From NCBI GenBank assembly GCA_025354645.1, contig JANXML010000113.1, forward strand, positions 1 to 34,080: DNA of 34,080 bases. Direction: 5' to 3'. The notes below the pieces were generated by a model. The model worked only from the letters and a program-made list of their open reading frames with translations. It did no database searches and was not told where the DNA came from. Positions 2,786 through 19,010 of this stretch are shown here, piece after piece (within the stretch, counting starts at the first letter, position 1; each line of letters opens with the position of its first letter). A program made the translations under genes and the position numbers. Source of the DNA: Arcicella sp. Its GTDB lineage: Bacteria > Bacteroidota > Bacteroidia > Cytophagales > Spirosomataceae.

Positions 2786-2880
2786 TTAGGTCGTAAGTAT
2801 GAGGGAAAACCTATAAATTCAATGGTATGGAAATAAACTTCTAAATTTGTTTTACCTAATGCCTCATACCTACGACCTAA
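2786..2880. repeat. Intergenic inverted repeat, 19-bp arms, AGGTATGAG-type
   Basis: The left arm (2786-2804, TTAGGTCGTAAGTATGAGG) and right arm (2862-2880) are reverse complements with one mismatch, separated by 57 bases. Further degenerate TAGGTATGA units lie at about 2760-2785. The element fills most of the gap between two paralogous genes. A similar element built from the same unit lies at 12558-12683. Whether it acts as an mRNA hairpin or is a mobile or slippage-derived repeat cannot be told from sequence alone. Confidence 0.8.
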
Positions 2881-2924
2881 AAAGTCGGTATAATTTTTGC
2901 GGAAAACAAAACAACCTTAATATA

Positions 2925-4958
2925 ATGGTATCAATGTTAAAGAAATCCGCCTTCTTTTTATTCTTCTTTCTTAAAATTATTTCCCCAACGTTGTCTCAAA
3001 AAACGTATTGGGCGAGTAAAATATTAGAGTTTTCCTCAGAACGAGTCATTCCTTTTCAAACCACAGAGTATAAAGCTGTTCAAGCGTTAGGTAAACCGAA
3101 TGTATTTCCAAACCATGTAGTCAGCACAGCCGCATGGGAACCATCATCCCCCGATAGTCCCAATGAAGAATTTATCACAGTAGGTTTTGATACGTTGATG
3201 TCAATTCGTCAAGTAGCAATTGCAGAGAATTATGGAAGCGGTTGCATCTCAAAAATCATTGCTTTAGACACAGAATCGAATCCTCATATTCTCTATAATA
3301 CTCGTAATGAACCAGCTAAGCCTCTTTCACGTGGCAAAATGCTCAATATATTTCTTCCTCAAAGTACTTCTTATGGTATTGCTGCCATCAAATTATTTTT
3401 AAATACTGAAAAAATAAAAGGTCCAAATCAAATTGATGCTATCGGAATATCTGAATCGATAGAACCTATCAAAGCAACGATAAAAGTTGCCCTAGATGCT
3501 CCAAAAGAAGTTTATCGTGAAAATCTTGGTAAAGGCGTTAATTCAAGACATCAAGAATTTGCTCCAGTGATTTCAGGTGATGGAAAAACGCTTTTTTATA
3601 CCCGAAATTACCTGTCAGTTTTTGGTAAAGAAAAAGATCAAGACGTTTGGTTTAGTACTCAAGATAAAGAAGGTAATTGGATAAAATCAAAGAATATTGG
3701 TTACCCTATCAATAATAACGATAAAAATGCAGTTTTTTCGGTTTCAGCCGATGGTCGAGAAATTTTATTAATGAATAAATATAATCGGGACGGTAAATTA
3801 TCTCCTGGTATCTCTCGCTCCTATCGAACTCGTGATGGATGGGCGTATCCTGACGAAGTTAAAATAGATAATTATTACAACCAAAGTCCCAATGCCGAAT
3901 TTGCCATTTCACCCGATGGTTCAGTAATGGTGATGTCTATTCAAAGAAAAAACACTATTGGCAAGCGAGATTTATACGTTTCCTTCAAAAAGGATAAAAA
4001 TACATGGACTGAACCTGTAAATATGGGAAGACAACTTAATACGTTTGAACACGATGTAACTCCCTTTATTGCTGCTGATGGAAAAACACTTTATTTTTCA
4101 ACACAAGGACTTCCAGGATTTGGTGATAATGACATTTTCAAAGCTCAAAGATTAGATGAAACTTGGCAACTATGGTCTGAACCTGAAAACTTAGGATCTG
4201 CCATAAATACACCAAATTGGGATGGTTATTTTACAATTCCAGCTTCGGGTGATTATGCTTTTATTTGTTCGATTAATGCTTCTAAAAAAGAAGATATTTA
4301 TCGTTTAGAATTACCAAAAACTGCTAAACCAGAGCCTGTTGCTATCATTTCGGGTAATGTTTTGACAACGACAGATAAAAAACCCATTGAGGCAGTTTTA
4401 ACAATGACGCCACAAAATGATAAATTAAAACCCGAAATTAAAAACTACGACCCAGCTACGGGTGCATTCAGTTTCGTGGTTCCGTTGAAAGAAATCTATG
4501 ATTTTGTGCCGTATGCAAAAGGATATTTAGCCATTAATGAAACCGTGGATTTATCCAAGGAAATATCTTACCGTGAAATTAGAAAAGATTTTTACTTAAT
4601 GCCCTTAGAAGCGGGGAATAAAGGTATTTTGAACAGTTTTACTTTTGAACAAGGTGAATCAAAGTTACAAGCTCCTGCCTTGAAAGATTTGGACAGAATC
4701 GCACAAGCCATGATAGATTTTCCTACTTTGGAAATCCTTTTTGAAGGACACACCGATAATCAAGGAGATTTTCAATTGAATTTAAAACTCTCGGAAGAAC
4801 GGATTGAAGAAGTTAAAAATTATTTAATTTCAAGAGGAGTTCCTGCCGAAAGGATTACAACAAAGGGATGGGGACAAACTCGCCCGCTTGCCAGCAATGC
4901 CACCGAAGAAAGACGTAAATTAAATCGTCGTGTGGAATTTACAATCGTTAAAAAATAG
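2925..4958 (+). CDS. OmpA-family protein with discoidin-like domain, PD40 propeller and CRD (paralogue 2)
   Basis: This is a paralogue of the gene before it, with the same architecture. The chosen start (2925, MVSMLKKS) gives 677 aa with a hydrophobic signal peptide ending TLSQ before KTYWASK. A farther upstream ATG (2847) would place a polar segment ahead of the signal and run through the inverted repeat, so it is unlikely. The domains are a discoidin-like domain (about 26-200, ALGKPNV conserved), PD40 propeller repeats (about 210-470), a CRD (about 480-560) and OmpA (about 565-677, GHTDNQGD at 608). It is predicted to be exported and to bind peptidoglycan through the OmpA domain. The propeller and OmpA parts match paralogue 1 closely, while the CRD and signal peptide differ more. 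This points to an old tandem duplication, not a recent one. The exact role is unknown; a scaffold in envelope assembly or secretion is an inference. Confidence 0.9.
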   Translation: MVSMLKKSAFFLFFFLKIISPTLSQKTYWASKILEFSSERVIPFQTTEYKAVQALGKPNVFPNHVVSTAAWEPSSPDSPNEEFITVGFDTLMSIRQVAIAENYGSGCISKIIALDTESNPHILYNTRNEPAKPLSRGKMLNIFLPQSTSYGIAAIKLFLNTEKIKGPNQIDAIGISESIEPIKATIKVALDAPKEVYRENLGKGVNSRHQEFAPVISGDGKTLFYTRNYLSVFGKEKDQDVWFSTQDKEGNWIKSKNIGYPINNNDKNAVFSVSADGREILLMNKYNRDGKLSPGISRSYRTRDGWAYPDEVKIDNYYNQSPNAEFAISPDGSVMVMSIQRKNTIGKRDLYVSFKKDKNTWTEPVNMGRQLNTFEHDVTPFIAADGKTLYFSTQGLPGFGDNDIFKAQRLDETWQLWSEPENLGSAINTPNWDGYFTIPASGDYAFICSINASKKEDIYRLELPKTAKPEPVAIISGNVLTTTDKKPIEAVLTMTPQNDKLKPEIKNYDPATGAFSFVVPLKEIYDFVPYAKGYLAINETVDLSKEISYREIRKDFYLMPLEAGNKGILNSFTFEQGESKLQAPALKDLDRIAQAMIDFPTLEILFEGHTDNQGDFQLNLKLSEERIEEVKNYLISRGVPAERITTKGWGQTRPLASNATEERRKLNRRVEFTIVKK

Positions 4959-5069: not shown

Positions 5070-5897
5070 ATGACTACCTCAACGCAACAATCAATAATCT
5101 TATCCACTGACTTTAAAAAGTTACAAGGCAAACTCCGTCTTAAAATTCTTGAAATGTATTTCAACGCTAATGCAGGACACATTGGCTGTTCACTTTCGTG
5201 CGTTGATTTGATGATAGGTTCTTTGATAACTCATAGGAAAGAAAATGAGGTTTTTTTGTTGTCAAAAGGTCATGCTGCGGCTGCTTTGTACGCTTGTTTA
5301 CATGAATTAGGTGAGATTTCGGATGAAACTTTAAAGACTTTTTACAAAAACGGAACCACACTCCCAGCCCATCCAGCACCCAATAAAATCAAAGGAATTC
5401 CTTTTGCTACGGGTTCATTAGGTCATGGGTTGCCCATAGCAATTGGCATTGCCCAAGCCAATAAAATCCTCGAAAACGATGAATACACCTACGTTTTGAT
5501 GTCTGATGGTGAAACAAATGAAGGTACAACTTGGGAAGGTGCACATTACGCAGTGGCAAAAAGCTTAGATAATTTAATCGTTATGATTGATAAAAACGGA
5601 CTTCAAGGATTTGGAAACACCAATGAAATTTTAGGGGTATCAGCCGACAAAAATAAATGGGAAGCAATGGGTTTTGAAGTGGTTGAATGTGATGGACACG
5701 ATGTTTCAGAAATTAATAATCAAATCGATTTATTCAAGGCTCGCAAAAATGGTGTTCCTAAGTTATTAATTGCCAATACAATTAAAGGTAAAGGCGTTTC
5801 ATATATGGAAAATAAAATTGAATGGCATTATTTACCGATGAAACCTGAAAATTACGAAATAGCAATTAGTGACGTAAAAAATAATTATAACCAATAA
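5070..5897 (+). CDS. Transketolase, N-terminal (thiamine-diphosphate binding) half
   Basis: This 275-aa protein is the pyrophosphate-binding half of a two-piece transketolase. Visible features are H37 in NAGHIG, KGHAAAALYA around H68, ATGSLGHGLP around H119, the Mg/ThDP motif as SDGETNEG (145-152) followed 27 residues later by NGLQGFG, and a C-terminal NTIKGKG stretch. The first Gly of the classical GDG motif is Ser here. Together with the C-terminal half (8008-8916) it would move two-carbon units between sugars. The halves are separated by a 2-kb sugar epimerase-glycosyltransferase gene. That placement, in a glycan locus and away from central metabolism genes, suggests that it makes a precursor for a surface sugar. 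A dedicated promoter lies upstream. Confidence 0.92.
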   Translation: MTTSTQQSIILSTDFKKLQGKLRLKILEMYFNANAGHIGCSLSCVDLMIGSLITHRKENEVFLLSKGHAAAALYACLHELGEISDETLKTFYKNGTTLPAHPAPNKIKGIPFATGSLGHGLPIAIGIAQANKILENDEYTYVLMSDGETNEGTTWEGAHYAVAKSLDNLIVMIDKNGLQGFGNTNEILGVSADKNKWEAMGFEVVECDGHDVSEINNQIDLFKARKNGVPKLLIANTIKGKGVSYMENKIEWHYLPMKPENYEIAISDVKNNYNQ

Positions 5898-5928
5898 TTC
5901 CTTACAAAACCTATAATCCTTTTCATCA

Positions 5929-7914
5929 ATGACCGATTCGGTAAAAGAAAAAATCTTATCTCTCAAAGGACCCATTTTTGTTTATGGTGCGTCTGGTTTT
6001 ATTGGAGCAAATCTTTTTAAAGACATTTTTAGTGTTCGTAAAGATTGTTATGCACTCACTCACGATGCACAAAAAGCATGGCGATTGAAATTATTAGACG
6101 TTCCATCCGAAAATATTGTTCATTGTGATATTGTTTCTAATTATTCGGTTCAAGATGTTTTTAATTCCTACAAACCTAAAACCATTTTCAATTTAGCCGC
6201 TTACGGTGCATATTCTAAGCAAAAAAATGTAACGTTAACTTACGAAACGAACGTAGTTGGAACAGTTAATTTATTAGAAAATATAACTTCGGATATGGTG
6301 TATATCCATGCAGGAAGTAGCTCAGAATATGGTTTTAATTGTACAACTCCCAAAGAAACCGATGCTCTCGAACCAAACAGCCATTATTCAGTTTCAAAAA
6401 TTTCTGCGGCATATTTGATTCAATTTTATGCTCGTGTACACGAAAAGAACGCCATTAACTTACGACTTTATTCAATATATGGCGATTGGGAAGAACCTGA
6501 CAGATTAATTCCAAAATTAATCGAATCCGTTCGTCAGCATAAATTACCAAACTTTGTTTCCAAAGATATTAGCCGTGATTTTGTTTATATGTCGGATTGT
6601 GTTGAAGCTTTTATTGATTCAGCTCTCAAAATATCGCCCGAGATAAGAGGAAAATCGTATAATATTGCGAGTGGCGTAAAAACTACGATTGGTGATTTAG
6701 TAGAAATTTGTCGTAAAGAATTTGGCATAAAAGAAGAGCCTTCTTGGGGAAGTATGGAAAATCGTTCATGGGATTTGGCTGAATGGTATGGCGACCCCAC
6801 AGAAGCAAAAAAAGATTTAGGTTGGGAAACAAAAACACCTCTAAATCAAGGACTTAGACAATATTTTGGTTGGCAAGAAGCGATTAAATATGAAGAAAAT
6901 TTATTACCTGCTTTTCAAAATCCGTATCTAAATCCAGTCATAACTGCAATTATTGCTTGTTACAGAGATGCCGAGGCGATTCCGTTTATGTATGAACGAT
7001 TGGTCAAAACTTTCAATGAAATGAAGGTTCGTTATGAGATTATCTTCGTGAATGATTGCTCTCCTGATAACACAGAGGAGGTTTTAGAAGAAATTTGCAA
7101 TAAAGATTCTAATGTAATTGGTATTACGCATTCAAGAAATTTTGGTTCTCAATCTGCTTTTTTGTCGGGCATGGAAATTTCAACGGGAGATGCGGTAGTT
7201 TTAATGGATGGCGATTTGCAAGACCCGCCAGAAGTTATGCCAAGATTTTATGAGAAATGGACACAAGGTTTTGAGGTAACGTATGGAGTGCGAATTCAAC
7301 GTGAAATGCCTGCTTGGTTGCATTTTTTCTACAAAACGTTTTATAAAATCTTTAAAAATATGTCCTACATCAACATTCCAAAGGATGCAGGTGATTTTTC
7401 AATGATTGACCGTAAAGTGGTGAAAGAATTAGTAAATCTTCCCGAAACTGAACAATTCCTTCGTGGATTACGGGCTTGGGTAGGTTTCAAACAAATTGGC
7501 GTGGATTATATACGACCTGAAAGAATGTTTGGGGTTTCTACCAATAACTGGCGTAAAAACATCTGGTGGGCTAAAAAGGCAATATTTTCATTTAGTTTTG
7601 TGCCTTTGGAAATAATGTCTTACGCAGGATTTATTATGACCTTAGTTTCAGTTTTAGGAATTATTTGGCAAATTTTAGCAAAATTAGTTTTCTACCCAAA
7701 CACACCTTCTGGACTTTCAACCGTTATCATTTTAGTAATGTTTTTTGGAGGAATTAATTTGTTAGGAATTAGCTTTTTAGGTGAATACATTGCCAAGATT
7801 TTTGAAGAAACTAAAAAGCGTCCAAAGTTCATTAGAACTAAGGTTAGAAAAGGAGTCAAACAATACAATACGTCGGAGGAAATAAAAAGATTAGTTGAAG
7901 GACAAAGGAAATAA
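5929..7914 (+). CDS. Fused NAD-dependent sugar epimerase/dehydratase and GT2 glycosyltransferase
   Basis: One 661-aa frame carries two enzymes. Residues about 14-315 form an extended SDR: GASGFIG nucleotide-binding loop (20-26), GSSSEYG with the catalytic Ser region (129-135), and YSVSK with catalytic Tyr153 and Lys157. This half should epimerise or dehydrate a nucleotide sugar. Residues about 335-545 are a GT2 domain of the DPMS/GtrB kind: IIACYRDAE, FVNDCSPDNTEE, SRNFGSQSAFLSG and DGDLQDPP (427-434). Two membrane helices follow (about 555-580 and 597-620) with a basic tail, as in polyprenyl-phosphate glycosyltransferases. The protein could therefore make a sugar and load it onto a lipid carrier at the inner membrane. 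The gene lies 31 bases after the transketolase N half and 93 bases before the C half. The frame is continuous, with no sign of a sequencing join. Confidence 0.88.
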   Translation: MTDSVKEKILSLKGPIFVYGASGFIGANLFKDIFSVRKDCYALTHDAQKAWRLKLLDVPSENIVHCDIVSNYSVQDVFNSYKPKTIFNLAAYGAYSKQKNVTLTYETNVVGTVNLLENITSDMVYIHAGSSSEYGFNCTTPKETDALEPNSHYSVSKISAAYLIQFYARVHEKNAINLRLYSIYGDWEEPDRLIPKLIESVRQHKLPNFVSKDISRDFVYMSDCVEAFIDSALKISPEIRGKSYNIASGVKTTIGDLVEICRKEFGIKEEPSWGSMENRSWDLAEWYGDPTEAKKDLGWETKTPLNQGLRQYFGWQEAIKYEENLLPAFQNPYLNPVITAIIACYRDAEAIPFMYERLVKTFNEMKVRYEIIFVNDCSPDNTEEVLEEICNKDSNVIGITHSRNFGSQSAFLSGMEISTGDAVVLMDGDLQDPPEVMPRFYEKWTQGFEVTYGVRIQREMPAWLHFFYKTFYKIFKNMSYINIPKDAGDFSMIDRKVVKELVNLPETEQFLRGLRAWVGFKQIGVDYIRPERMFGVSTNNWRKNIWWAKKAIFSFSFVPLEIMSYAGFIMTLVSVLGIIWQILAKLVFYPNTPSGLSTVIILVMFFGGINLLGISFLGEYIAKIFEETKKRPKFIRTKVRKGVKQYNTSEEIKRLVEGQRK

Positions 7915-7931
7915 AAGGAGAAATGAAGTAG

Positions 7932-8001
7932 GGAGGAAGGGAGACAAAAAAAGCAATTTCAAGAGGTGCTTGTTCTTTTCATGCTTACTCCCTTATTCCT
8001 C
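7932..8001. repeat. Purine-rich/pyrimidine-rich inverted repeat between two genes
   Basis: A purine tract containing GAGGAAGGGAG (7933-7943) is complementary to CTCCCTTATTCCTC (7988-8001) apart from a three-base bulge. Inside lies a short AAGCA...TGCTT dyad (7951-7971). The left arm follows the upstream stop, and the right arm ends six bases before the likely start of the next gene. The layout resembles the elements at 2786 and 12558, but the sequence unit differs. It would form a hairpin in mRNA. Confidence 0.5.
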
Positions 8002-8007
8002 AAAAAT

Positions 8008-8916
8008 ATGAGAAGAGAATTTTCAGATGCCATTGAAAAAATTGCCCTTGAAGACGAAAAAATCGTTTTTATCACGGGTGATTTGGGCTATAACGCACTC
8101 GAAAACTTACAAAAAAAATTAGGTAATCGTTTTATAAATGCTGGCGTGGCAGAGCAAAATATGGTTGGACTCGCCGCAGGAATGGCATACAAAGGTTTTA
8201 AAGTTTTTTGCTACTCAATTGCTCCATTTGTGGTTTATCGTTGTTGGGAACAATTCAGAAATGACGTTTGTTTGCATAATTTGCCTGTTTTTTTAGTGGG
8301 AAATGGTGGAGGATATGGCTATGGAATTATGGGAAGCACTCACCACGCCATCGAAGATTTAGCTGGACTTAGTGCATTGCAAAACGTAAAATGTTGGATT
8401 CCAGCTTTTGCCGATGAGGTTGAACCTTTTTTAAATCAAATAGTGGCAGATGGTCGTCCTGCCTACTTGCGTTTAGGTGCTGGTAAACAGACTCCTGCAA
8501 ACGAAGGAGAATTTGGTAGCTTGAAATTGGTCATAAAATCCGAAAAGCCAAAAGGCTCAATCGTTGCTCTGGGACCTGTGGCTAACAACGTAGTTAGTGT
8601 TTTGCAACAAGGAAAATTTACTAACAAATTCAATTTATATACCGCTCAAAATGTTCCATTAACGATTGATTCAGCAGGATTTAATTTATTGCAAGCAACT
8701 GATAATCTGTTGGTTATTGAAGAGCATGTGAGTATTGGCGGTTTGGCTCAACAACTTTCTGTTCAATTGATGGAACAAGGAATATCATTTAAAAAATTTA
8801 TAAGTTTACGTGCGGAAGGTTATCCAGATGGAACGTATGGTGATCAAAATTTTCATCAAACACAGTCTGGTTTAGATGTAATTAATATTGCGGAAAAATT
8901 GAGACTTTTTTTATAA
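8008..8916 (+). CDS. Transketolase, C-terminal (pyrimidine-binding) half
   Basis: The protein is 302 aa when started at the ATG at 8008 (MRREFSDAIEK), which matches the usual start of this half. An in-frame ATG at 7966 would add 14 hydrophobic residues translated from the inverted repeat. It carries GDLGYNALE, INAGVAEQNMVGLAAG with the Glu (E49) that activates the thiamine aminopyrimidine ring, the aromatic FCYSIAPFVVYRCWEQ segment, GSTHHAIEDLA, and a C-terminal transketolase domain (about 180-302) ending in the EGYPDGTYGDQ region. It pairs with the N half at 5070 to form an active cytoplasmic enzyme, probably a heterotetramer as is usual for split transketolases. The stop is 10 bases before the next reading frame, so all belong to one operon. 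Confidence 0.92.
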   Translation: MRREFSDAIEKIALEDEKIVFITGDLGYNALENLQKKLGNRFINAGVAEQNMVGLAAGMAYKGFKVFCYSIAPFVVYRCWEQFRNDVCLHNLPVFLVGNGGGYGYGIMGSTHHAIEDLAGLSALQNVKCWIPAFADEVEPFLNQIVADGRPAYLRLGAGKQTPANEGEFGSLKLVIKSEKPKGSIVALGPVANNVVSVLQQGKFTNKFNLYTAQNVPLTIDSAGFNLLQATDNLLVIEEHVSIGGLAQQLSVQLMEQGISFKKFISLRAEGYPDGTYGDQNFHQTQSGLDVINIAEKLRLFL

Positions 8917-8926
8917 TCCTTATCTC

Positions 8927-10588
8927 TTGAAATCATCACTTTCTAAAAATATACTTTGGGCTATGCTGGTTTTTCTTCCAGTAGGTTTTTATTTCTACTT
9001 TCTTTCTGAATACGCTATAAATATTCCGAAGTGGGATGACCATGCCCTCAAAGCATTTATTGTTGAATTTCAAAATGCCAATGGGTTTATTCCAAAACTA
9101 CAAACCTTTTTCAAACAACATAATGAGCATAGGATTGCCTTTGACAGGTTTTTTACTTTAATCGTATTTTGGATTCATGATAGCATTGAATATCGTTGGT
9201 TGATGTGGATTGGGAATTTTACACTTTTGGGAGTATTATTAATTTTCTATAAAATTTTCAAAAAACAAAAATTATCTATTGCCTATTTTGTCCCAATCCC
9301 GTTCATATTATTTCAATTACAACTTTGGGAAAATACATTTTGGGGAATGGCATCAATGCAAAACTTTGGAATAATATTCTTCATATTTTTACTGATTTAT
9401 TTGATTTCCTCAGAGAAAAAGACTCATTTTTATTCAGCTCTTTTGGTTGCTCTTTTTGCTACGTACACAAGTGGCAATGGCATAACAATTTTTCCAGTAT
9501 GCTTATTTTTATTAGTCCTACAACGCAGATTTAAAGATGTTTTTGTATTTAGTTCAATATCGATAATCTTGGTATTTTTATATTTTTACCACTATAAATT
9601 TCCTGAGAATAATCCCTCATTAGATGGAATTGGAATTAGGAAAATAGCGACGGGGTTCTTCATGTTTTTAGGTTCAGTATTAGATTTAATCCCTAACGCT
9701 TCTCAAAGCCAAAAATTAACGATTTTAGGTGGTGCTATATTTTTAATAACTGGTTTGATTATAGCTATTTATCTAATTTTTAATAGTAAATTATTTAAAA
9801 AGCAACGAAATCTAAATCATACAGAATTATTTATTGTAGGATCTCTAATGTTTTTAATTGGTACTTCAATAGTAGTAACCTTGACAAGAATAAGTTATGG
9901 CGAAGCTGGATTATTGACAAGTCGATATAAGATTTATTCTATTTTATTATTAATTACTTTTTATATCGCCTTTATATCAAAAATCCATACTAATGACAGT
10001 AATTGGTTACCATTGACCTTAATTTTCATGGCAATTTGTTTCAATTTTGTCGCAAATTATACCAATTTTAAAGAAGTAGTAAATTTCAGAAATCAACTGA
10101 TTTCATTCGGCAATAATTGGAAATTAGATAAAAATATAGTTTCGGTAAAACCTACAATTAACTTGTATGAATCTCCTAAACTGGGAATTGAAAGTAATCT
10201 CCAAGAAATAGAATCACCAATTAAAAATGCTCCAATTTGGAATGATAGTATATTCAAATATGTAAATTCTGATGGTATTTTAATCCAAAATGAAAAATTT
10301 TCATTACCAACCATTAAAGGGGATAATATTTCATTAATTGTACAATCGAATAAAAGGACTTATTTAATGCCAGTAGAATTTATGAGAAACTCTTTAAAAG
10401 CATTTGTGAGAACGGGTAAATATTGGCGAAGTGGATTTGTTGGAGTTTTAAATAATAAAGAATTTGATAATGGATCTTATCAATTAGGCATATTGATTAA
10501 AAATAGGAATGTGATTAAAAGATATTACTTAAATGACTCATTATTGGTCAATAATCTTAATTCTAAACCTATAAAAACAAATTGGTAG
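8927..10588 (+). CDS. Polytopic membrane protein with C-terminal soluble domain, function unknown
   Basis: This is a 553-aa protein with roughly ten hydrophobic segments between residues 10 and 390 and a hydrophilic tail (about 400-553) likely to lie outside the cytoplasm. The likely start is TTG at 8927; an ATG at 8963 would cut into the first membrane helix. After helix 1 comes a conserved-looking loop with PKWDDHALKAF and KQHNEHRIAFDR, a kind of acidic/His loop often seen in sugar-handling membrane enzymes. In an operon with a GT2, an acyltransferase and UGM and with no other Wzy or Wzx candidate in sight, it could be a polymerase or a GT-C-like transferase. No family can be named with confidence. 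Confidence 0.75.
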   Translation: MKSSLSKNILWAMLVFLPVGFYFYFLSEYAINIPKWDDHALKAFIVEFQNANGFIPKLQTFFKQHNEHRIAFDRFFTLIVFWIHDSIEYRWLMWIGNFTLLGVLLIFYKIFKKQKLSIAYFVPIPFILFQLQLWENTFWGMASMQNFGIIFFIFLLIYLISSEKKTHFYSALLVALFATYTSGNGITIFPVCLFLLVLQRRFKDVFVFSSISIILVFLYFYHYKFPENNPSLDGIGIRKIATGFFMFLGSVLDLIPNASQSQKLTILGGAIFLITGLIIAIYLIFNSKLFKKQRNLNHTELFIVGSLMFLIGTSIVVTLTRISYGEAGLLTSRYKIYSILLLITFYIAFISKIHTNDSNWLPLTLIFMAICFNFVANYTNFKEVVNFRNQLISFGNNWKLDKNIVSVKPTINLYESPKLGIESNLQEIESPIKNAPIWNDSIFKYVNSDGILIQNEKFSLPTIKGDNISLIVQSNKRTYLMPVEFMRNSLKAFVRTGKYWRSGFVGVLNNKEFDNGSYQLGILIKNRNVIKRYYLNDSLLVNNLNSKPIKTNW

Positions 10589-10594
10589 TTTTTT

Positions 10595-11707
10595 ATGAAA
10601 CAAGAAACATATTTTTCACAACTTGATGGTATCCGATTTATTGCGGTTGGTTTAGTATTGCTCGACCATTGGTTGGCTGAAAGTAATGTCTATCCCTTGG
10701 GTACTTTAGGTGTAACAATGTTTTTTGTTTTGAGTGGTTTTTTGATTACTCGAATATTGATTCAAAGTAAATTGAAAGACGATAAAATAGTGAGAAGTCA
10801 TTGGTTTTCAGTAAAACAATTTATCATTAGGCGTTCAATTCGTATTTTTCCTATCTATTTTCTGGCAATTTTTGTTTTGTATTTACTGGATGTACTGCCC
10901 GTAAGAGAAACTATTTTGTGGTGTTTGACTTATACAACTAACCTTTATATCGCCATTAAACAGCATTGGATGGGTACAATTGACCATCTTTGGTCATTAG
11001 CGGTTGAGGAGCAATACTACTTGGTTTTCCCTTATTTAATTTTGTTTTTGCCTACAAATAGTTACAAGAGAACGCTGATAAGCATGATAATTTTATCGGT
11101 ATTATTAAGATTATTTCTTTTTTTTAATGGTAGTCCTTGGATGGTTCAATACGTTTTAATGCCTACTTGCTTAGATAGTTTTGGAATCGGCGGACTTCTG
11201 GCATACTTTTTTAGTTTTCAAAAAGAGACGTTTTTTAAAGAATTGACAACAATAAAATATTTGATTGCAAGTTTTTCAATGCTTATCATATTTTTGTTTT
11301 TTTCGAGACAATATCAAATTACTTCAAATCAAGTTCATCATTTTGGAAATTTAGTAATTGAAAGATTGATTGGTTCTATTTTTTGTTTTTTTCTTATTGC
11401 AAAAGCCGTAAATGGATATGAAGGAATAATGAAATGGTTTCTTGAAAATCCTTTGGTAAGTTATTTCGGAAGGATAAGTTACGGTTTGTACCTTTATCAC
11501 AATTTTGTTTTTAACTTTTTTCATACTCCCCAAACGAGTTTTGTATTGAGAGGTTTGCATAAAATTCAGCGGATTTTACCTTCAATGACTCAAAATTCTA
11601 TCTTTGAACTTTTATATTATTTCGGAATTACAGTTTTTATTGCAACGATTTCTTGGTATTTAATTGAAAAACCAGTTAATAATCTCAAAAAATACTTTAC
11701 CTATTAA
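10595..11707 (+). CDS. Acyltransferase family 3 (OafA/YrhL-type) membrane protein
   Basis: This is a 370-aa integral membrane O-acyltransferase. The N-terminus has the family signature QLDGIRFIAVGLVLLDHW with the likely catalytic His (H25), then GVTMFFVLSGFLITRIL and an SLAVEEQYYLVFP motif near residue 140. About ten membrane helices follow. It ends shortly after a final TISWYLIEKP segment, so it lacks the C-terminal SGNH domain of the longer members. Members of this family move acyl groups, commonly acetyl, onto surface sugars such as O-antigen. It starts six bases after the previous gene and closes the first part of the polysaccharide operon. The target sugar cannot be read from the sequence. 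Confidence 0.9.
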   Translation: MKQETYFSQLDGIRFIAVGLVLLDHWLAESNVYPLGTLGVTMFFVLSGFLITRILIQSKLKDDKIVRSHWFSVKQFIIRRSIRIFPIYFLAIFVLYLLDVLPVRETILWCLTYTTNLYIAIKQHWMGTIDHLWSLAVEEQYYLVFPYLILFLPTNSYKRTLISMIILSVLLRLFLFFNGSPWMVQYVLMPTCLDSFGIGGLLAYFFSFQKETFFKELTTIKYLIASFSMLIIFLFFSRQYQITSNQVHHFGNLVIERLIGSIFCFFLIAKAVNGYEGIMKWFLENPLVSYFGRISYGLYLYHNFVFNFFHTPQTSFVLRGLHKIQRILPSMTQNSIFELLYYFGITVFIATISWYLIEKPVNNLKKYFTY

Positions 11708-11808: not shown

Positions 11809-12549
11809 ATGAGTATTAAATTAGCAATCGTTATGCCAGCCTACAATGAGTCAGCGTGCATGGCAGACGTAGTAAAGATTTGGTCAGACCTTTTAGACAC
11901 TGAATTTGCAGGAGAAAATACCCGACTTATTGTAGTAAACGATGGGTCAAAAGACAATACAGGTAATATTCTTGATTCTTTAAAACCGCTTTATCCAAAA
12001 CTTGAAGTTGTGCATCAAGTTAATGGTGGACACGGAAATGCAGTTGTTCATGCCTATAGAAAAGCGGTTGAATTAGAGGCTGAATACATTTTTCAAACTG
12101 ATTCGGATGACCAATTTATTCCAGAAGATGTTAAAAAACTTTGGGATAAAAGAAATCAATCAGATTTCATTTTGGGTTACCGACAAGTTAGACACGATGA
12201 TATATTTAGACTATTGATTACCAGAATATTACGGTATAGTATGTTTTTAGTTTATGGTACTTTTATCATGGATTCAAACATTCCTTTTCGATTAATAAAA
12301 GGTAGCTTTTTGAAAAAATTGCTATCACAATTGCCAAGTCCTGTACCGTTTGCTCCTAATATTTTCTTGGCAATTATGGCTAAAAAATCAGGGCAAGAAT
12401 TATTTAATATTCCAATTATACACAAGGAAAGAGCAACTGGTGAGGTTTCAATTCAAAAAATGAAATTATTAAAAGTATGTTGGCAATCGTTTAAAGAATT
12501 ATTGAATTTCAGAGTAGAATTAAACAATAAGATTAAAAATTTAAAATAG
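11809..12549 (+). CDS. GT2 family glycosyltransferase (DPM1-like, soluble)
   Basis: This 246-aa enzyme has the GT-A fold: IVMPAYNESA (8-17), VVNDGSKDNTG, HQVNGGHGNAV, and a QTDSDDQF segment with the Asp-rich metal/NDP-sugar motif around residue 100. It resembles dolichyl-phosphate-mannose synthase-like transferases but has no clear C-terminal membrane helices; a moderately hydrophobic stretch (about 140-160) may touch the membrane. It should add one sugar to a lipid carrier or a growing glycan in the cytoplasm. It has its own candidate promoter and is followed by an inverted-repeat spacer and then by the UDP-galactopyranose mutase gene. The donor sugar is unknown. Confidence 0.88.
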   Translation: MSIKLAIVMPAYNESACMADVVKIWSDLLDTEFAGENTRLIVVNDGSKDNTGNILDSLKPLYPKLEVVHQVNGGHGNAVVHAYRKAVELEAEYIFQTDSDDQFIPEDVKKLWDKRNQSDFILGYRQVRHDDIFRLLITRILRYSMFLVYGTFIMDSNIPFRLIKGSFLKKLLSQLPSPVPFAPNIFLAIMAKKSGQELFNIPIIHKERATGEVSIQKMKLLKVCWQSFKELLNFRVELNNKIKNLK

Positions 12550-12704: not shown

Positions 12705-13808
12705 ATGAAACAATATGATTATTTAATTGTGGGGGCTGGACTTTTTGGTTCAGTATTCGCACATGAAGCTACAAAAAAAGGAAAAAGATGTTTAGTCATT
12801 GACCGAAGAAATCACACAGGCGGAAACATTTTTTCTGAAGAAGTTGAAGGTATCAATGTTCACAAATACGGGGCACACATCTTTCATACGAACGACAAAG
12901 GCATTTGGGATTATGTAAATTCATTCGTTGAATTTAATCGTTACACCAATTCACCCGTTGCAAATTTTGAAGGCGAATTATTTAATTTACCTTTTAATAT
13001 GAATACTTTTTATCAACTTTGGAAAGTTAAAACGCCCGAGGAAGCACAAGCTAAAATTAATGAACAAGTTGCTGCATCTGGTATAACTGACCCGCAAAAT
13101 TTAGAAGAACAAGCCATTTCATTAGTTGGAACCGATATTTATGAAAAATTGATAAAGGGCTATACTGAAAAACAATGGGGACGAAAGGCAACTGAATTAC
13201 CCGCTTTTATTATCAAGCGTTTGCCTTTAAGATTTACTTTTGATAATAACTATTTTAACGATAAATATCAAGGAATTCCGATTGGAGGATATAATAAATT
13301 GACAAAGGGTTTATTAAAAGATATCGAAGTTAGAACTGATGTCGATTTCTTTGAAAATAAAGAAGAATTGATGAAATTAGCCGATAAAACTGTTTTCACT
13401 GGTAATATTGACGAATTTTATGAATATCAATTTGGAAAATTAGAATATAGAAGTCTCAAATTTGAACATGAAACTTTAAATCAAGAAAATTTTCAAGGAA
13501 ACGCCGTTGTGAATTATACAGAAGCTGACATTCCATACACACGCATACTTGAACATAAACATTTTGAATTTGGAAAACAGCCAAAGACCGTTGTAACCAA
13601 AGAATATCCTTGTGAATGGACCGCTGGAATGGAGGCTTACTATCCTGTAAATGATGATAAAAACAACGAATTATTTAAAAAATATCGTGATTTATCTCGA
13701 CAAGAAGAGAATATAATTTTTGGTGGTCGTTTGGCTGAATATAAATATTATGATATGCACCAAGTTATTGGATCAGCTTTGGTAACTTCTAATAAAGAAT
13801 TACAATAA
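12705..13808 (+). CDS. glf: UDP-galactopyranose mutase
   Basis: This flavoenzyme converts UDP-galactopyranose to UDP-galactofuranose, the donor for galactofuranose in surface glycans. The 367-aa length is normal for bacterial Glf. The N-terminal FAD-binding site reads LIVGAGLFGSVFAHEA (residues 7-22), then VIDRRNHTGGN and the hallmark YGAHIFHTN (55-63). The middle has KGYTEKQWG, RLPLRFTFDNNYFNDKYQGIPIGGY and FTGNIDEFY. The C-terminus has the GGRLAEYKYYDMHQVIG FAD-contact region. All expected regions are present. Its presence implies galactofuranose in the product of this locus, although a galactofuranosyltransferase is not identified with certainty. It is cytoplasmic. Confidence 0.96.
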   Translation: MKQYDYLIVGAGLFGSVFAHEATKKGKRCLVIDRRNHTGGNIFSEEVEGINVHKYGAHIFHTNDKGIWDYVNSFVEFNRYTNSPVANFEGELFNLPFNMNTFYQLWKVKTPEEAQAKINEQVAASGITDPQNLEEQAISLVGTDIYEKLIKGYTEKQWGRKATELPAFIIKRLPLRFTFDNNYFNDKYQGIPIGGYNKLTKGLLKDIEVRTDVDFFENKEELMKLADKTVFTGNIDEFYEYQFGKLEYRSLKFEHETLNQENFQGNAVVNYTEADIPYTRILEHKHFEFGKQPKTVVTKEYPCEWTAGMEAYYPVNDDKNNELFKKYRDLSRQEENIIFGGRLAEYKYYDMHQVIGSALVTSNKELQ

Positions 13809-13879: not shown

Positions 13880-16522
13880 ATGATAAAACAAAAACTACTT
13901 TTACTGGCATTTGCTATTTTGGGAATTGGTGGTTTTATTTATTATAAACAAGCAACTTCAACCACAAATCGAATTATTGACTTTATTCCTGATAATACGC
14001 TCATTTTATTAGAAACAAACGAGATTTCTACTGTTAAAAATTCTGTAATTCCTCGAATACCTCTCCTAACAAATGCTTCTTCTCAATATCAAGTTTTAAA
14101 ATCGATTGGGCTTTCTCAAAAAGATATTGACCTTCTTATTTTAAAAAAAACACTCTATTTTGCTTTATTACCAAAAGGAAAGGACGATCTCGCTTTTGTG
14201 AATTATCTGCCTTTAACGACTGACAATGAAGACTTTATAGAAAAATTAAATAATCTTTCCCAAAATAATACAGGTAAGCGAATCATTCCACATACTACAA
14301 AGGGATATAAAGTTTTAGAAGTAGTGGATGAACAAGCTAAATCTCTTTTTGCATATATTATTCAAGATAATTTTTTGATTTTTAGCCAATCAAATTTAGC
14401 TTTGGAAGAATCCATTTTGCACGCTCAAAGTAATTGGATTAAAACATTAAAACTTAATAAAGCGGAATCTAAATCTGATAAAGTTTTTAACAAAACACAT
14501 TTTAATCAAGCCTCTATAAATAGTTTTTTAAAAGGAATTTCGGTTAATAATTCAATAAATTTCTCATCAATTTTTCCGCAAACGCTTGAATGGTTAAAGC
14601 CAAGTAGTAATTCAATTGAAGCAATCAGTACGCCTTCACATTCAAATCTATTTGATGGACAAAAATCGTTAAGTATTCAAGGCTTGAATATGATTCCAAA
14701 TTCAAGTTCCTATTCTTTAATTATGTCCTTTTCAAATAGTGAAAAATTGACTAAACAAATACAGAAAAATTTAGAGAATGACAAAAAAATAAATACCTTA
14801 CGAGAAAAGGTTAATAATAAATTTGATGTAGAATTTAAGAAAATTGATGAAAAAATAACGGATGAAGTGATACTTTGTAATTTTGATTACTCCTATCAAA
14901 TTCAGCAAAATAAGGTTTTGATAATTAAGCAAAAAGGACTTTTGAACCCTTTGAAGGTAATTTCAAGTAACGTTGCTTCTAAAAGTGAAGATGATGTTTT
15001 CAGTGTTCAATATGGTAGTTTCCTGGTTACATTGTTAGGAATTAAAGAATTTCCGATGATGCTTTTTGGTGAAATTTATAGTGGATTTGAGGAATGTTAT
15101 TTTACTGAATATAATGATTATGTAATCATAGCAAGCAATTTATCCACAATGCAAGATTATTTAATTTCGATCAGTAAAGGCGAAGTTTGGAGTAATTCTC
15201 CTAAAAATAAAAAGATTTTATCATACTGTTTACCAGCAAATTTGACACTTATCACTGAAAATTCCAGAGCATTATCAGGCTTACAAAATATACTAAATAC
15301 CAAATGGGCTGAAAAAATAAATATTAACAAAAATGCTCTTTCAGGTATTCAAGCCGAGATTTTACAAATAAGTGCAACTGATGAAAGATTAGTTCTACTG
15401 AAAAATATAGAGGTAAATAAAACAACTCAAAAAATAAGTAATAAGTGGTTTAAATTAGGAGGTTTAAACATTGTGAGTGTCTCGAAACCATTATACCTAA
15501 TAAATCCTCTCAATAAAAATCCTCAAATTTTAGTTCAAAGTGCCGACTACAAACTAATTTTATTTGAAAATGGGAAAAAAGTATGGAGTCATCAATTAAG
15601 TAATAATTTGGTAGGAAACATTAAAAGTATTAAATATTCGAAAGTTTCATCACAAGAACTGATTGCCGTCACAAAATCAAAAATATTTATTTTAATAAGA
15701 TCAGAAAAAGGTTTTGATGTAATCGAAAGCAAACCTTTCAAAGGATTTAATCTCGATAATTTTAATATTTTTGAAAATGAAGTTGATAAAGATATAAATT
15801 TAACATTAGTTTCGGGTGAAGGTGTTTCATTTAAACTTAACAAAGAAACTTTAATATTATCTTCAATAACTACTCCACAAAACAGTGGTCAGATTCTTAC
15901 TCCAATGCCAAATATCATTCAAAAAGGCATTGAATTTGTATTAATGATGAATAGTAATGGGAAACTTATTCTTCAAAATGCAAAAGGTAAAATAGTGCCA
16001 AATTTTCCTATAAATATTAACGGAAATTTTTCAACTCCACCATTTTTAGAAAGAGAAAATAAAAATGTTGTTATCAGGGTGATTAGCCAACAAGGAGATT
16101 TATTTAAAATTAGCTTAGAAGGTAAAATTCTTGAAAAAAGACAATTATACCGACCAATTAATGAAGTGAAATTTTCGATGGCATCCGATGATCGGAACAC
16201 CGATTGGGTTTTGATGAGAACCGATGGAAAAGAGGTAATTGTTTTAGATAAAAATGAAAAAGAGTTATTTGTAATAAAGGGACTAAATTACGGTAAGAAA
16301 GTTTTAGGATATTATAATTTAGGAATTGCAGGCAAATATTTTTCAGTTAATAATGGATACGAAAACTACCATTTCTATGATGAAAATGGAGACGCTATTG
16401 GGCAAATTCCAATTGAATCTAATTTCAAGCCAATTCTATCATACTCAGACTCTTATAAAAAAATTATCATGAATATTACCAAACCAAGTAGCATCGAAAC
16501 TTGGTCAGTTAAGATACGCTAA
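13880..16522 (+). CDS. Large membrane-anchored protein with propeller-like C-terminal half, function unknown
   Basis: This is an 880-aa protein that I do not recognise. A single N-terminal hydrophobic segment (about 5-22, LLLLAFAILGIGGFIYY) acts as a signal anchor, so the rest is probably periplasmic. The first half (about 30-500) has the IIDFIPDNTLILLETNE opening seen in some proteins with DUF3352-like domains, but this is only a suggestion. The second half (about 520-880) has repeated short beta motifs such as LVQSADYKLILFENGKKVW, LMMNSNGKLILQNAKGKIVPNFP, LMRTDGKEVIVLDKNEKEL and YHFYDENGDAIGQIP. These resemble blades of a PQQ/quinoprotein-like propeller. It lies one base before an MBOAT gene, so it may help assemble or export the acylated glycan. 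Confidence 0.8.
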   Translation: MIKQKLLLLAFAILGIGGFIYYKQATSTTNRIIDFIPDNTLILLETNEISTVKNSVIPRIPLLTNASSQYQVLKSIGLSQKDIDLLILKKTLYFALLPKGKDDLAFVNYLPLTTDNEDFIEKLNNLSQNNTGKRIIPHTTKGYKVLEVVDEQAKSLFAYIIQDNFLIFSQSNLALEESILHAQSNWIKTLKLNKAESKSDKVFNKTHFNQASINSFLKGISVNNSINFSSIFPQTLEWLKPSSNSIEAISTPSHSNLFDGQKSLSIQGLNMIPNSSSYSLIMSFSNSEKLTKQIQKNLENDKKINTLREKVNNKFDVEFKKIDEKITDEVILCNFDYSYQIQQNKVLIIKQKGLLNPLKVISSNVASKSEDDVFSVQYGSFLVTLLGIKEFPMMLFGEIYSGFEECYFTEYNDYVIIASNLSTMQDYLISISKGEVWSNSPKNKKILSYCLPANLTLITENSRALSGLQNILNTKWAEKININKNALSGIQAEILQISATDERLVLLKNIEVNKTTQKISNKWFKLGGLNIVSVSKPLYLINPLNKNPQILVQSADYKLILFENGKKVWSHQLSNNLVGNIKSIKYSKVSSQELIAVTKSKIFILIRSEKGFDVIESKPFKGFNLDNFNIFENEVDKDINLTLVSGEGVSFKLNKETLILSSITTPQNSGQILTPMPNIIQKGIEFVLMMNSNGKLILQNAKGKIVPNFPININGNFSTPPFLERENKNVVIRVISQQGDLFKISLEGKILEKRQLYRPINEVKFSMASDDRNTDWVLMRTDGKEVIVLDKNEKELFVIKGLNYGKKVLGYYNLGIAGKYFSVNNGYENYHFYDENGDAIGQIPIESNFKPILSYSDSYKKIIMNITKPSSIETWSVKIR

Positions 16523-16523
16523 T

Positions 16524-17927
16524 ATGCTTTTTAATTCCATACATTTTTTCTTTTTTTTCATCATTGTTACTTTAGGATATTGGTCTTTGGGTTGGGCGGG
16601 TCGTTGGCGATTGTTGCTTTTTGCAAGTTGTTATTTTTACATGATTTTTAAACCTGTTTATATTCTTATTCTATTTTTTACCATTATCATTGATTATTAT
16701 GCGGGTATTTGGCTTGAAAAGACAGAAGGAAAACAAAGAAAATGGTTATTGATAATTAGTATTATTACCAACGTTGGAATTTTAGCTTTCTTTAAATATT
16801 ATCATTTTGCTTTTGAAAATATCGAAAATCTTTTAGGTATATTTCAAGTAAAAAATCCATTACCAGTTTTTGACTTTATCCTTCCAATTGGGCTTTCTTT
16901 TCATACTTTTCAAGCGATGAGTTATACGATTGAAGTGTATAGAGGAAACCAAAAAGCGGAAAAACATTTCGGAATTTATGCCTTGTATGTGATGTTCTAT
17001 CCACAGTTGGTGGCAGGTCCGATTGAACGACCTCAAAATGTCTTGCCCCAATTTCACATTACGCATAAATATGATTTCGAAAAAGTAAAAAGTGGTTTAA
17101 TGATGATGGCTTGGGGACTATTAAAAAAGGTTGTGATTGCTGATAGATTAACAATGTTCGTGGATTATGCTTATGAAAACCCTTCTGAAAAAACGGGGCT
17201 GACATTATTGATTGCCACGTTTTTCTACACTTTTCAGATTTATTGCGATTTTTCTGGATATTCAGATATTGCTCTGGGTTGTGCCAAAGTTATGGGATAT
17301 GATTTAATGGAAAATTTCAGAACTCCCTATTTCTCAACCTCAATATCTGAATTCTGGCGACGATGGCATATTTCCTTATCAACTTGGTTCAGGGACTATT
17401 TATACATTCCAATGGGTGGAAATCGTGTTAGTGAATGGCGAAGATATTTTAATCAGTTTTTTGTTTTCATGATTAGTGGACTTTGGCATGGTGCGGCTTG
17501 GAATTTTGTTATTTGGGGTTCTTTACACGGAATTTATTTAATCTCTGCGGTTTTGAGAGACAAATATTTACCTCAATTAACGCTACCGAAAAATCTTTTT
17601 GGAAAATCAATTAACCTTATCACAACATTTATTTTAGTAATGTTAGCTTGGATTTTCTTTCGTGCGAGAGGAACAAATGATGCCTTTATTATAATAAAAA
17701 AAATAAGCATATTTTCCTTAAATCAAGATTTTAATAGTCCGCTCAACACAACAGAAATGTGGTTTTCAATAATGTTGATAGGCATTTTATTATGGAAAGA
17801 ATTTAATTTTTTTCAAATCAATACTCAAAATTCAGTAAGATTTTATGGCTTAATTACTCTTTTTACCTTGACAATATATTTCTTTGGCGTATTTAATACC
17901 AATCAATTTATTTACTTTCAGTTTTAA
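16524..17927 (+). CDS. MBOAT family O-acyltransferase (AlgI-like)
   Basis: This 467-aa polytopic membrane protein of the AlgI/DltB/PatA group moves acyl groups across the inner membrane to sugars in the periplasm. Key features are PIGLSFHTFQAMSYTIEVYRG (121-141), QLVAGPIERP (161-170), YCDFSGYSDIALG (240-252), FRTPYFSTSISEFWRRWHISLSTWFRDYLYIPMGG (a block at 265-299), and SGLWHGAAWNFVIWG with catalytic H322. It is full length, with about ten helices. One base separates it from the preceding gene. The AlgJ/AlgX-like partner follows across a 63-base gap filled by a palindromic element. This is the second O-acyltransferase system in the locus, after the OafA type. Confidence 0.95.
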   Translation: MLFNSIHFFFFFIIVTLGYWSLGWAGRWRLLLFASCYFYMIFKPVYILILFFTIIIDYYAGIWLEKTEGKQRKWLLIISIITNVGILAFFKYYHFAFENIENLLGIFQVKNPLPVFDFILPIGLSFHTFQAMSYTIEVYRGNQKAEKHFGIYALYVMFYPQLVAGPIERPQNVLPQFHITHKYDFEKVKSGLMMMAWGLLKKVVIADRLTMFVDYAYENPSEKTGLTLLIATFFYTFQIYCDFSGYSDIALGCAKVMGYDLMENFRTPYFSTSISEFWRRWHISLSTWFRDYLYIPMGGNRVSEWRRYFNQFFVFMISGLWHGAAWNFVIWGSLHGIYLISAVLRDKYLPQLTLPKNLFGKSINLITTFILVMLAWIFFRARGTNDAFIIIKKISIFSLNQDFNSPLNTTEMWFSIMLIGILLWKEFNFFQINTQNSVRFYGLITLFTLTIYFFGVFNTNQFIYFQF

Positions 17928-17929
17928 TA

Positions 17930-17988
17930 GTAACCCGATGTTCCTGCATCGGACTTGACAATCATTAGATGTGGAAGCATCGGGTTAC
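17930..17988. repeat. Compound palindromic element (GTAACCCGA...TCGGGTTAC ends), copy A
   Basis: The outer ends GTAACCCGATG (17930-17940) and CATCGGGTTAC (17978-17988) are perfect reverse complements. Each arm is itself a small hairpin: CCGATG and CATCGG around TTCCTG on the left, GATG and CATC around TGGAAG on the right. The element begins two bases after the MBOAT stop codon and ends two bases before the next ATG. A second copy with different but still paired inner stems lies at 29691-29788. It looks like a REP-type intergenic repeat. Confidence 0.85.
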
Positions 17989-17990
17989 AG

Positions 17991-19010
17991 ATGAATTTAA
18001 AAATTTTAAAATATTCTGTTTTATTTTCAGCCATTTATTTGTGGTTACAAGCATACTCACCCCTTGTATATAAATCTTCACGACTTTTCCCAGACGATTA
18101 TCGAAATGGAGATTTGTATCACCTCTCCTATCTTGCTCAATTCAAAGAAAAGCTGCCAATTTGCAATTCTTCCATAAAAGATTCTGTTGCTCAAAATGTA
18201 AATCTTTACGTGATTGGAGATAGTTTTACCGAAGAACAAAAAGTTCGCAACACTGACATAAATGCTTCAAAATATCTAAATGTGCATTGGAATAGTCAAG
18301 TCGAAATAGAATTAGATACTTCAAAAAGGAATATTTTAATCTTAGAAACCGTTGAAAGAACATTCAGAAATCATTTTTCAGAGGAAGTAACTAATTTTAA
18401 ATTTGATAGTAAGTATAAATCTGAACTGAATAATACTTGGAAAAGAAAATTAAAGGATAAAATTGATGAAATAATTACATTCATTTTTCCAGAAAAAGAT
18501 TCAATCGAGCAAAGATTTGAAGCATCATTGTTTAGTTATGATTTCATTTTAAGGTTTAGAGAAATAAAGGCACAGATTAACCATAATTTTTTTGGGAGAA
18601 TAGAAAAGAAAGTTGTTTTATCAAAAGATAAAAACCATATATTTTTCTCAGAAGAAGCGTTGCCAACCGACTCACGTTCAGCATTTTACCCACTTTTAGA
18701 TTCAGAGAAAGATTCTTTGATTTTGAGCATAAATTTAACCCGTGAAAAGTATTTAAAAGCGGGATTTGATGAAGTTTATTTGTCAATTATTCCCAATAAA
18801 GTAAGTGTACTATCTCCTGATTTAGGCACATATAATCATCTGATTGAGCGTGTACAAAATGATTCTAAGTTGATGATTCCAGTAATTGATACTTATTCAG
18901 AATTCAAAAAAAAACCTTCAAAATATTACCTGAAATCTGATTCACATTGGACTTGTGAAGGAAGGAATTTGTGGTTGAATAAAGTCAATAAAATTCTTGT
19001 ATCTAAATGA
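17991..19010 (+). CDS. AlgJ/AlgX-like SGNH-type protein, partner of the MBOAT acyltransferase
   Basis: The chosen start is the ATG at 17991 (MNLKILKYSVLFS), giving 339 aa with an N-terminal signal anchor (about 5-22). An ATG at 17955 would translate part of the palindromic element and is unlikely. The periplasmic part has LYVIGDSFTEE with the presumed nucleophile S78 and, near the end, KSDSHWTCEGRNLW with D317/H319. These are the GDS and D.HWT signatures of AlgJ/AlgX-type enzymes, which accept acyl groups from an MBOAT protein and pass them to a polysaccharide. The stretch between them is Lys/Glu-rich and divergent. Its stop overlaps the start of the OxyR gene by four bases (ATGA), so translation of the two may be coupled. 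Confidence 0.8.
   Translation: MNLKILKYSVLFSAIYLWLQAYSPLVYKSSRLFPDDYRNGDLYHLSYLAQFKEKLPICNSSIKDSVAQNVNLYVIGDSFTEEQKVRNTDINASKYLNVHWNSQVEIELDTSKRNILILETVERTFRNHFSEEVTNFKFDSKYKSELNNTWKRKLKDKIDEIITFIFPEKDSIEQRFEASLFSYDFILRFREIKAQINHNFFGRIEKKVVLSKDKNHIFFSEEALPTDSRSAFYPLLDSEKDSLILSINLTREKYLKAGFDEVYLSIIPNKVSVLSPDLGTYNHLIERVQNDSKLMIPVIDTYSEFKKKPSKYYLKSDSHWTCEGRNLWLNKVNKILVSK

Follow-up and report, generated by a model that had tools for sequence, protein, structure and literature searches.

For the miharamycin and amipurimycin pathways, transketolases encoded as two genes have been suggested to attach a hydroxyacetyl group to a ketosugar, a proposal described in 2025 as pending (PMC12247030). The same review counts 13 putative split-gene transketolase sequences, all from Streptomycetes and uncharacterised in vitro, and describes YerE as a decarboxylase-type enzyme that uses pyruvate. 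Three-component periplasmic glycosylation by GtrB, GtrA and a GT-C enzyme, in which a short-chain dehydrogenase/reductase (SDR) may diversify the sugar, is described in excerpts of a second paper (PMC11127046). The present analysis concerns a glycan locus of Arcicella sp. (assembly GCA_025354645.1, contig JANXML010000113.1, positions 1 to 34,080; the whole stretch of 34,080 nucleotides is referred to as the window) in which an earlier note, made from the DNA alone, had seen the halves of a transketolase on either side of a sugar gene of about 2 kb. The three genes, here called the cassette, probably form a dedicated module for an unusual sugar donor. Open reading frames were present at the following positions, as the note had claimed:

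5070..5897, + strand: tktN, the thiamine diphosphate (ThDP)/Mg-binding half of the cassette transketolase, 275 amino acids (Transketolase_N PF00456, 6e-33)
5929..7914, + strand: fusion of an SDR with a GtrB-type family 2 glycosyltransferase (GT2), 661 amino acids (Pfam Epimerase 1e-36 plus Glycos_transf_2 1e-27; NCBIfam)
7966..8916, likely start 8008, + strand: tktC, the pyrimidine-binding and C-terminal transketolase half (Transket_pyr PF02779, 2e-28)

The closest relatives in the Protein Data Bank (PDB) were the N chain of 6yak for tktN and 6yaj for tktC, which together make up the split transketolase of Carboxydothermus. The GTG listed as the start of tktC (7966) is probably too early and the true start is probably 8008 (MRREF..), since the Methylobacterium tktC homologue begins at the corresponding residue. 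In the fusion protein, residues about 1-325 make up an extended SDR and residues 338-661 a GT2 with C-terminal long helices that is closest to the polyprenyl-phosphate glycosyltransferases GtrB/sll0501, PgfS and ArnC-type enzymes. The top Foldseek match of an AlphaFold2 model of the fusion (pLDDT 84.2, pTM 0.62) was GtrB 9nyc (E 4.9e-24), and the GT2 motif DGD..QDPP was kept in 98 of 98 sequences. The "epimerase-glycosyltransferase" of the earlier note thus stands as a fusion, with its C-terminal half refined to a polyprenyl-phosphate glycosyltransferase of the GtrB/PgfS type. VIA matches of the SDR half were epimerases, nucleotide-sugar dehydratases and a few L-threonine dehydrogenases (Z 33.9-37.2) and, because the top rows are close to tied, name no substrate. 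The whole fusion protein did not reach the cut-off of the GalE equivalog TIGR01179 (68 bits vs 262.3).

Linkage of the three genes was evident within the family to which the window belongs. By our own count of search rows, a nearly full-length fusion of at least 57% identity was present in 110 of 200 family genomes (own included), representing 21 of 36 genera and 5 of the 8 genomes of the same genus; in two more genomes, contig ends truncate it to pieces. Among 30 loci inspected with 1.5-kb flanks (own included), tktN lay beside the fusion in 29, the contig ending there in the remaining one, and tktC lay within 1.5 kb in 24. A GT-C-like gene directly followed the fusion in the six loci without tktC in the flank, and tktC sat behind that gene in all three of these that were followed further. 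The 19 larger family loci contained tktN in every case and tktC in 18 (the contig ends in the other), together with a GT-C gene (14), an acyltransferase 3 gene (14), a PMT_2-type gene (13), a second GT2 gene (12) and a gene for a DUF3352-like large protein (12). No transketolase half occurred within about 4 kb of any of 12 unfused GtrB homologues hand-picked from the family search as controls, one of these loci being cut to 1.1 kb on one side. The association is beyond chance, as seen from its conservation and from this control. In a phylum sample of 296 genomes, only the own genome and one more family member had the fusion (E <=1e-100), and in an order sample tktC (E <=1e-45) was found in 9 of 148 genomes, of which 7, counting the own genome, belong to the own family and 2 do not. 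The set is therefore common in the own family and rare around it.

The cassette was also noted in distant phyla. When one genome per species (84,980 species) was scanned for two peptide motifs of the GT2, at least 488 confirmed relatives were obtained, of which the best 80 are referred to as named loci; since only GT2 motifs were used, transketolase linkage was not built into the scan. The 80 named fusions match the Methylobacterium copy over most of the protein or its whole length (51-99% identity), and record titles placed them in Pseudomonadota, Actinomycetota or Mycobacterium, Planctomycetota, Verrucomicrobia, Lentisphaerae, Nitrospinae, Eremiobacterota, Acidobacteriaceae, Chthonomonadaceae, Geobacteraceae and Bdellovibrionaceae, among others. 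Many are contigs of metagenome-assembled genomes, so that single taxon assignments may be wrong bins; isolate-titled records (e.g., Methylobacterium, Dyella and Rhizobium strains) carry the cassette as well. Both transketolase halves were present in 71 named loci and tktC in 76. The order tktN-tktC-fusion, contiguous on one strand, was seen in 68, and in 3 others the transketolase pair lay 0.9-3.7 kb upstream. All nine loci without one or both halves have at most 1364 bases upstream, and in one of them the start of tktN is joined to the end of tktC, leaving remnants of both.

The gene association is conserved in relatives, so that the lack of conservation which the earlier note had named as a refutation did not apply. 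Placement of the fusion between the halves is a habit of the own family, where tktN-tktC-fusion stand in a row in only 2 of the 19 larger loci, and it carries no mechanistic meaning because the halves are side by side in most named loci.

Pairwise distances among TktN, TktC, SDR and GT2 correlated at 0.84-0.94 (82 cassettes or a 54-locus subset), values to which species relatedness contributes. In a TktC tree of 44 rows (every fourth named row, every third family row, plus L060, L117, L129, L135 and L136), 26 of the 30 cassette-linked rows grouped in a single long-stemmed clade (100/99). The other four rows are diverged transketolases, of which two fell outside this clade (L117, L129) and two joined it weakly (L135, L136; 61/70); because the same fusion accompanies them, these four loci suggest that the transketolase was replaced while the partnership with the fusion was kept. 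On a plasmid of Methylobacterium aquaticum MA-22A, tktN and tktC accompany a full-length fusion (45% identity); among the matches listed from the plasmid collection, this was the only record with an SDR above 29% identity. Phages gave distant tktC matches only (20 records; 29.5% identity in the top row and at most 32.7% among the matches listed). Two Mycobacterium records (L121 and L122) carry the cassette in loci of 59-60% G+C. This is below the value that we take to be usual for Mycobacterium and suggests either an acquired island or a binning error.

The own genome gave two Transketolase_N matches, one to the cassette tktN and one on another contig (G000:C190). The latter belongs to a housekeeping transketolase that is itself split, with an N gene followed by a directly adjoining, matching C half, both canonical (L040:7064-8896). 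A second Transketolase_N match, higher-scoring than that of the cassette, was found elsewhere in all 14 cassette-carrying genomes among 20 family genomes examined. The cassette pair is therefore not the sole, housekeeping transketolase of its genome, a case that the earlier note had named as a refutation. The broader proposal of that note, in which a thiamine enzyme made of two pieces goes with a nucleotide-sugar gene inside a glycan locus, is supported by conserved linkage and by this separation from the housekeeping copy.

Differences between the cassette and housekeeping enzymes were obvious at the active site. Residues are given in human transketolase numbering, with the roles that we take the transketolase literature to assign to D155, N185, E366, H416 and D424. 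As expected of a ThDP/Mg2+ enzyme, the Mg2+ residues D155 and N185 were kept in 91 of 91 TktN relatives and the ThDP glutamate E366 in all 19 family copies and in 71 of the 72 named ones, the last having a gap there; the substrate histidines of TktN were likewise kept across the 91 relatives except for gaps and one Gln. The 72 named TktC exclude four diverged transketolases, which carry Gly at 416 and Ala or Asn at 424. The phosphate histidine H416 was replaced by Gly in 19/19 family and 71/72 named copies (one gap), the acceptor aspartate D424 by Met in 19/19 and 68/72 (Gln in the other 4), and F389 by Ile in 19/19 and 71/72 (one gap). His, Asp and Phe at 416, 424 and 389 are retained by the own housekeeping copy, the Carboxydothermus enzyme and human transketolase; thus cassette TktC lacks both the substrate-phosphate and the acceptor residue that the housekeeping copy of the same genome keeps. 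With H416 changed to Gly and D424 to Met or Gln in nearly all copies, the cassette transketolase is probably not a pentose-phosphate enzyme and would be a poor user of ordinary ketose and aldose phosphates. Arg474 was lost in the own family (Ala, Val or Leu in 19/19) yet kept in 57 of 72 named copies, and its loss is accordingly restricted to the own family and not claimed as a general cassette trait; Arg318 was retained in 19/19 and 69/72. Loss of Ser345 was not used as evidence, since this column shifts between alignments (Asn in two and Tyr in two for the window group).

Plasmid-borne split transketolases provided a further comparison. Five of these in polysaccharide settings (L061-L065) had Gly (four) or Phe (one) at position 416 and Met at 424 in none. 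At 416, six others had Gly once (L168), His once and other residues four times, and none had the pair of Gly and Met; L166, L167, L170 and L171 lie beside transport or breakdown genes, L172 in a phosphonate/nonribosomal peptide synthetase cluster and L168 beside acyl-activating genes and a glycosyltransferase. L066, which adjoins sugar-transport genes, has Ser at 416 and Leu at 424. Gly416 is thus common to a wider group of biosynthetic transketolases, and the pair of Gly with Met or Gln marks the cassette in the set examined, except for L063 (Gly and Gln).

A candidate for delivery of the product follows tktC:

8927..10588, + strand: membrane glycosyltransferase of GT-C fold, 553 amino acids, presumed user of the lipid-linked sugar (AlphaFold2 model and VIA)

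VIA rows 1-34 for the model of this gene (8927-10585, pLDDT 87.4) comprised 31 GT-C-titled entries and 3 oligosaccharyltransferase-type translocon entries (Z 9.8-17.1), with titles that included ArnT, AftA/AftB, oligosaccharyltransferases, ALG enzymes, PimE, Emb and DPY19; the absence of other folds from these rows carries no evidential weight. The best match was ArnT 5ezm (Z 17.1, root-mean-square deviation 4.7, 346 aligned), and Foldseek alone was weak (best E 1.3e-2). By its modelled fold, the gene after tktC encodes a GT-C enzyme, as in a three-component system. The GtrB half, this fold and the presence of GtrA near some named loci fit a GtrB/GtrA/GT-C system.

The preferred reading draws on domain identities, linkage and active-site changes read from sequence and on the modelled GT-C fold; its substrate, order of steps, C2 transfer and acceptor glycan are inferred. 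The SDR half would handle a nucleotide sugar, most likely a UDP-sugar, and form or reduce a keto group, and the altered split transketolase, no longer gripping an ordinary ketose phosphate in the usual way, would move a two-carbon ketol unit onto or off the sugar. A redox-neutral scheme is conceivable in which the SDR oxidises the UDP-sugar to its keto form, the transketolase adds the ketol and the SDR reduces the new ketone. The GtrB half would then load the product on undecaprenyl phosphate and the GT-C enzyme move the sugar, outside the membrane, onto a surface glycan; neighbouring genes may acylate it further. Taken in full, i.e., as a module for an unusual polyprenyl-phosphate-linked sugar that includes C2 transfer by the split transketolase, this reading is about evenly balanced between being right and wrong. 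A bolder proposal is that the cassette has spread horizontally and that its split transketolase, neofunctionalised, adds C2 to a keto-sugar made by the GtrB-fused SDR, so that many bacterial phyla would produce a new class of polyprenyl-phosphate sugars with a branched carbon skeleton; this is more tentative and falls somewhat short of an even balance. If correct, it would be the first case of a transketolase demonstrated to branch an activated sugar.

C2 transfer to a ketosugar is supported by analogy only, from gene sets that pair CDP-4-ketohexose genes with a split transketolase and from the miharamycin/amipurimycin proposal. Methylovirgula sp. HY1 has the order rfbF-rfbG-SDR-rfbH-tktN-tktC, which we take to be a set of CDP-3,6-dideoxy-4-ketohexose genes with the split transketolase in the place that YerE presumably occupies in the yersiniose pathway. 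In Paenibacillus cellulosilyticus, rfbF and rfbG accompany an SDR fused to TktN (L063:6103-8010), with tktC adjoining. In the own genome (assembly 95.4% complete), rfbF and rfbG of the CDP-glucose pathway had no match over curated cut-offs, and this pathway was rejected there as the ketosugar source.

Several observations weigh against the preferred reading. No NDP-4-keto-sugar dehydratase is constant beside the cassette (rfbG-like in 7 and rmlB-like in 10 of the 80 named loci), which leaves the source of the ketosugar unexplained. The sole GtrA found in the own genome is on another contig than that of the window (C192), and a GtrA match lay near only 26 of the 80 named loci. Replacement of H416 by Gly is not specific to the cassette, being found in four of the five plasmid transketolases of polysaccharide context and one of the other six. 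Since Arg318 is kept nearly everywhere and Arg474 in 57 of the 72 named copies, some residual phosphate binding may remain.

The alternative that best survives, although unlikely, is that the transketolase acts upstream on free sugars to give a rare aldose or ketose (or its phosphate) that is activated in the ordinary way, the SDR only epimerising and the GT2 loading. The transketolase fold, the donor-side histidines and the retained Arg474 suit this alternative, as does the ribulose-phosphate 3-epimerase gene that 8 of the 19 larger family loci have upstream of the cassette (e.g., L058:2437-3210), often adjoining ligA, a neighbour that may reflect either a pentose-phosphate link or mere synteny. 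It sits poorly with the loss of the phosphate histidine and with Met or Gln for the acceptor aspartate in 72 of 72 named copies, as well as with the neighbourhood, where no nucleotidylyltransferase is constant (rfbF in 2 and rmlA in 5 of the 80 named loci) and no sugar kinase appeared among ten annotated neighbour clusters, the remaining clusters not being annotated.

Less probable still is that the SDR and GT2 make an ordinary donor (e.g., undecaprenyl-phosphate-galactose or -GalNAc) and that the transketolase modifies another part of the glycan, such as a lipid or acyl group. The nearly tied best fold matches of the SDR half include plain UDP-sugar 4-epimerases, and the SDR motif AGSSSEYG (motifs were read in 98 sequences) presumably lacks the usual dehydratase Asp/Glu. 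An SDR epimerase also serves a three-component system (PMC11127046, in excerpt). Such a division of labour would leave unaccounted for the pairing of the transketolase with the fusion in 71 of the 80 named loci, the rest being cut short, the correlation of 0.92 between SDR and TktC distances, and the SDR-TktN fusion in Paenibacillus. That a housekeeping transketolase lies in a glycan locus by chance is very improbable and was rejected, despite the transketolase fold and intact cofactor residues, given the canonical pair at C190 (unless this pair is inactive), the higher-scoring second Transketolase_N in 14 of 14 cassette genomes, the altered active site and the long-stemmed clade of 26 of 30 cassette-linked TktC rows.

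Further genes of the window extend the locus downstream of the GT-C gene:

10595..11707, + strand: acyltransferase 3 family membrane protein, a conserved neighbour (PF01757, 9e-26; 14/19 loci)
11809..12549, + strand: GT2 glycosyltransferase, a conserved neighbour (PF00535; 12/19 loci)
12705..13808, + strand: UDP-galactopyranose mutase (TIGR00031, 438.5 bits vs cut-off 303.75)
13880..16522, + strand: 880-amino acid protein of a cluster found in 12/19 loci (a relative matches DUF3352; the window copy has no Pfam match at 0.001)
16524..17927, + strand: MBOAT O-acyltransferase (PF03062, 7e-26)
17955..19010, + strand: possible AlgX/SGNH-like partner of the MBOAT protein (weak: PF16822, E 0.0026, 17.9 bits vs cut-off 26.5)

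A flavin adenine dinucleotide-dependent (FAD) oxidoreductase replaces the mutase at its position in 4 of 19 relatives. Among the 80 named loci, an S-adenosylmethionine (SAM) methyltransferase of one cluster, with an N-terminal Cys-rich segment in most copies, occurred in 51 and a second methyltransferase cluster in 30; all but one of the 51 begin no more than 3 kb past the fusion or, by open reading frame calling, overlap its end, the remaining one lying upstream. Directly upstream of the window's cassette are two tandem PD40-OmpA proteins (695-2755 and 2847-4958), and one or two members of this cluster were also upstream in 13 of the 19 larger family loci; the eight best OmpA relatives among the matches listed belong to Bacteroidota. 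Elsewhere, the window encodes a full-length lantibiotic-dehydratase-like protein (LanB N and C domains, TIGR03891; 21375-24452, - strand), near which the annotated open reading frames included no cyclase, short precursor frames not having been looked for, and an aromatic amino acid hydroxylase of the phenylalanine 4-monooxygenase type (27204-27989, + strand).

The cassette offers a sharply defined and widespread test case of whether transketolases make branched sugars, for which the proposal in antibiotic clusters was pending in 2025 (PMC12247030). Since records titled as isolates of Methylobacterium, Dyella and Rhizobium, for example, carry it, the sugar can be sought directly. The cassette would also account for an unknown sugar on the surface of many environmental bacteria and provide a biocatalyst for ketol transfer.

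Among known systems, the Carboxydothermus split transketolase (6yaj/6yak) is the best PDB match for both halves and likewise has two chains, but this enzyme retains the phosphate His, the acceptor Asp and the Arg. With three-component GtrA/GtrB/GT-C systems, including pentofuranose ones with an auxiliary SDR epimerase, it shares a polyprenyl-phosphate glycosyltransferase and a GT-C enzyme; compared with these systems as excerpted (PMC11127046), the cassette differs in joining its SDR to GtrB in one protein and in its link to a split transketolase, and the window has no adjoining GtrA. The Actinoplanes wps-2 cluster likewise combines tktN, tktC and a methyltransferase in an exopolysaccharide cluster but, as far as the excerpted description goes, has aminotransferases and a Wzx/Wzy set, and its deletion gave no phenotype (PMC13390465); the likeness is one of description. 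YerE of the yersiniose pathway is similarly a ThDP enzyme that branches a nucleotide ketosugar (CDP-3,6-dideoxy-4-ketohexose) for an O-antigen. It differs in being of the decarboxylase type and using pyruvate, as excerpted from PMC12247030, and the genome with the cassette has no rfbF or rfbG over cut-offs. The miharamycin and amipurimycin clusters also pair a transketolase of two genes with a sugar oxidoreductase and are proposed to transfer a hydroxyacetyl group onto a ketosugar; these are Streptomyces antibiotic clusters, likened to the cassette by description, and their own chemistry is also unproven (PMC12247030). The parts of the cassette are of known kinds, and no description of their combination was found in the literature searched, judged mostly by titles and abstract starts.

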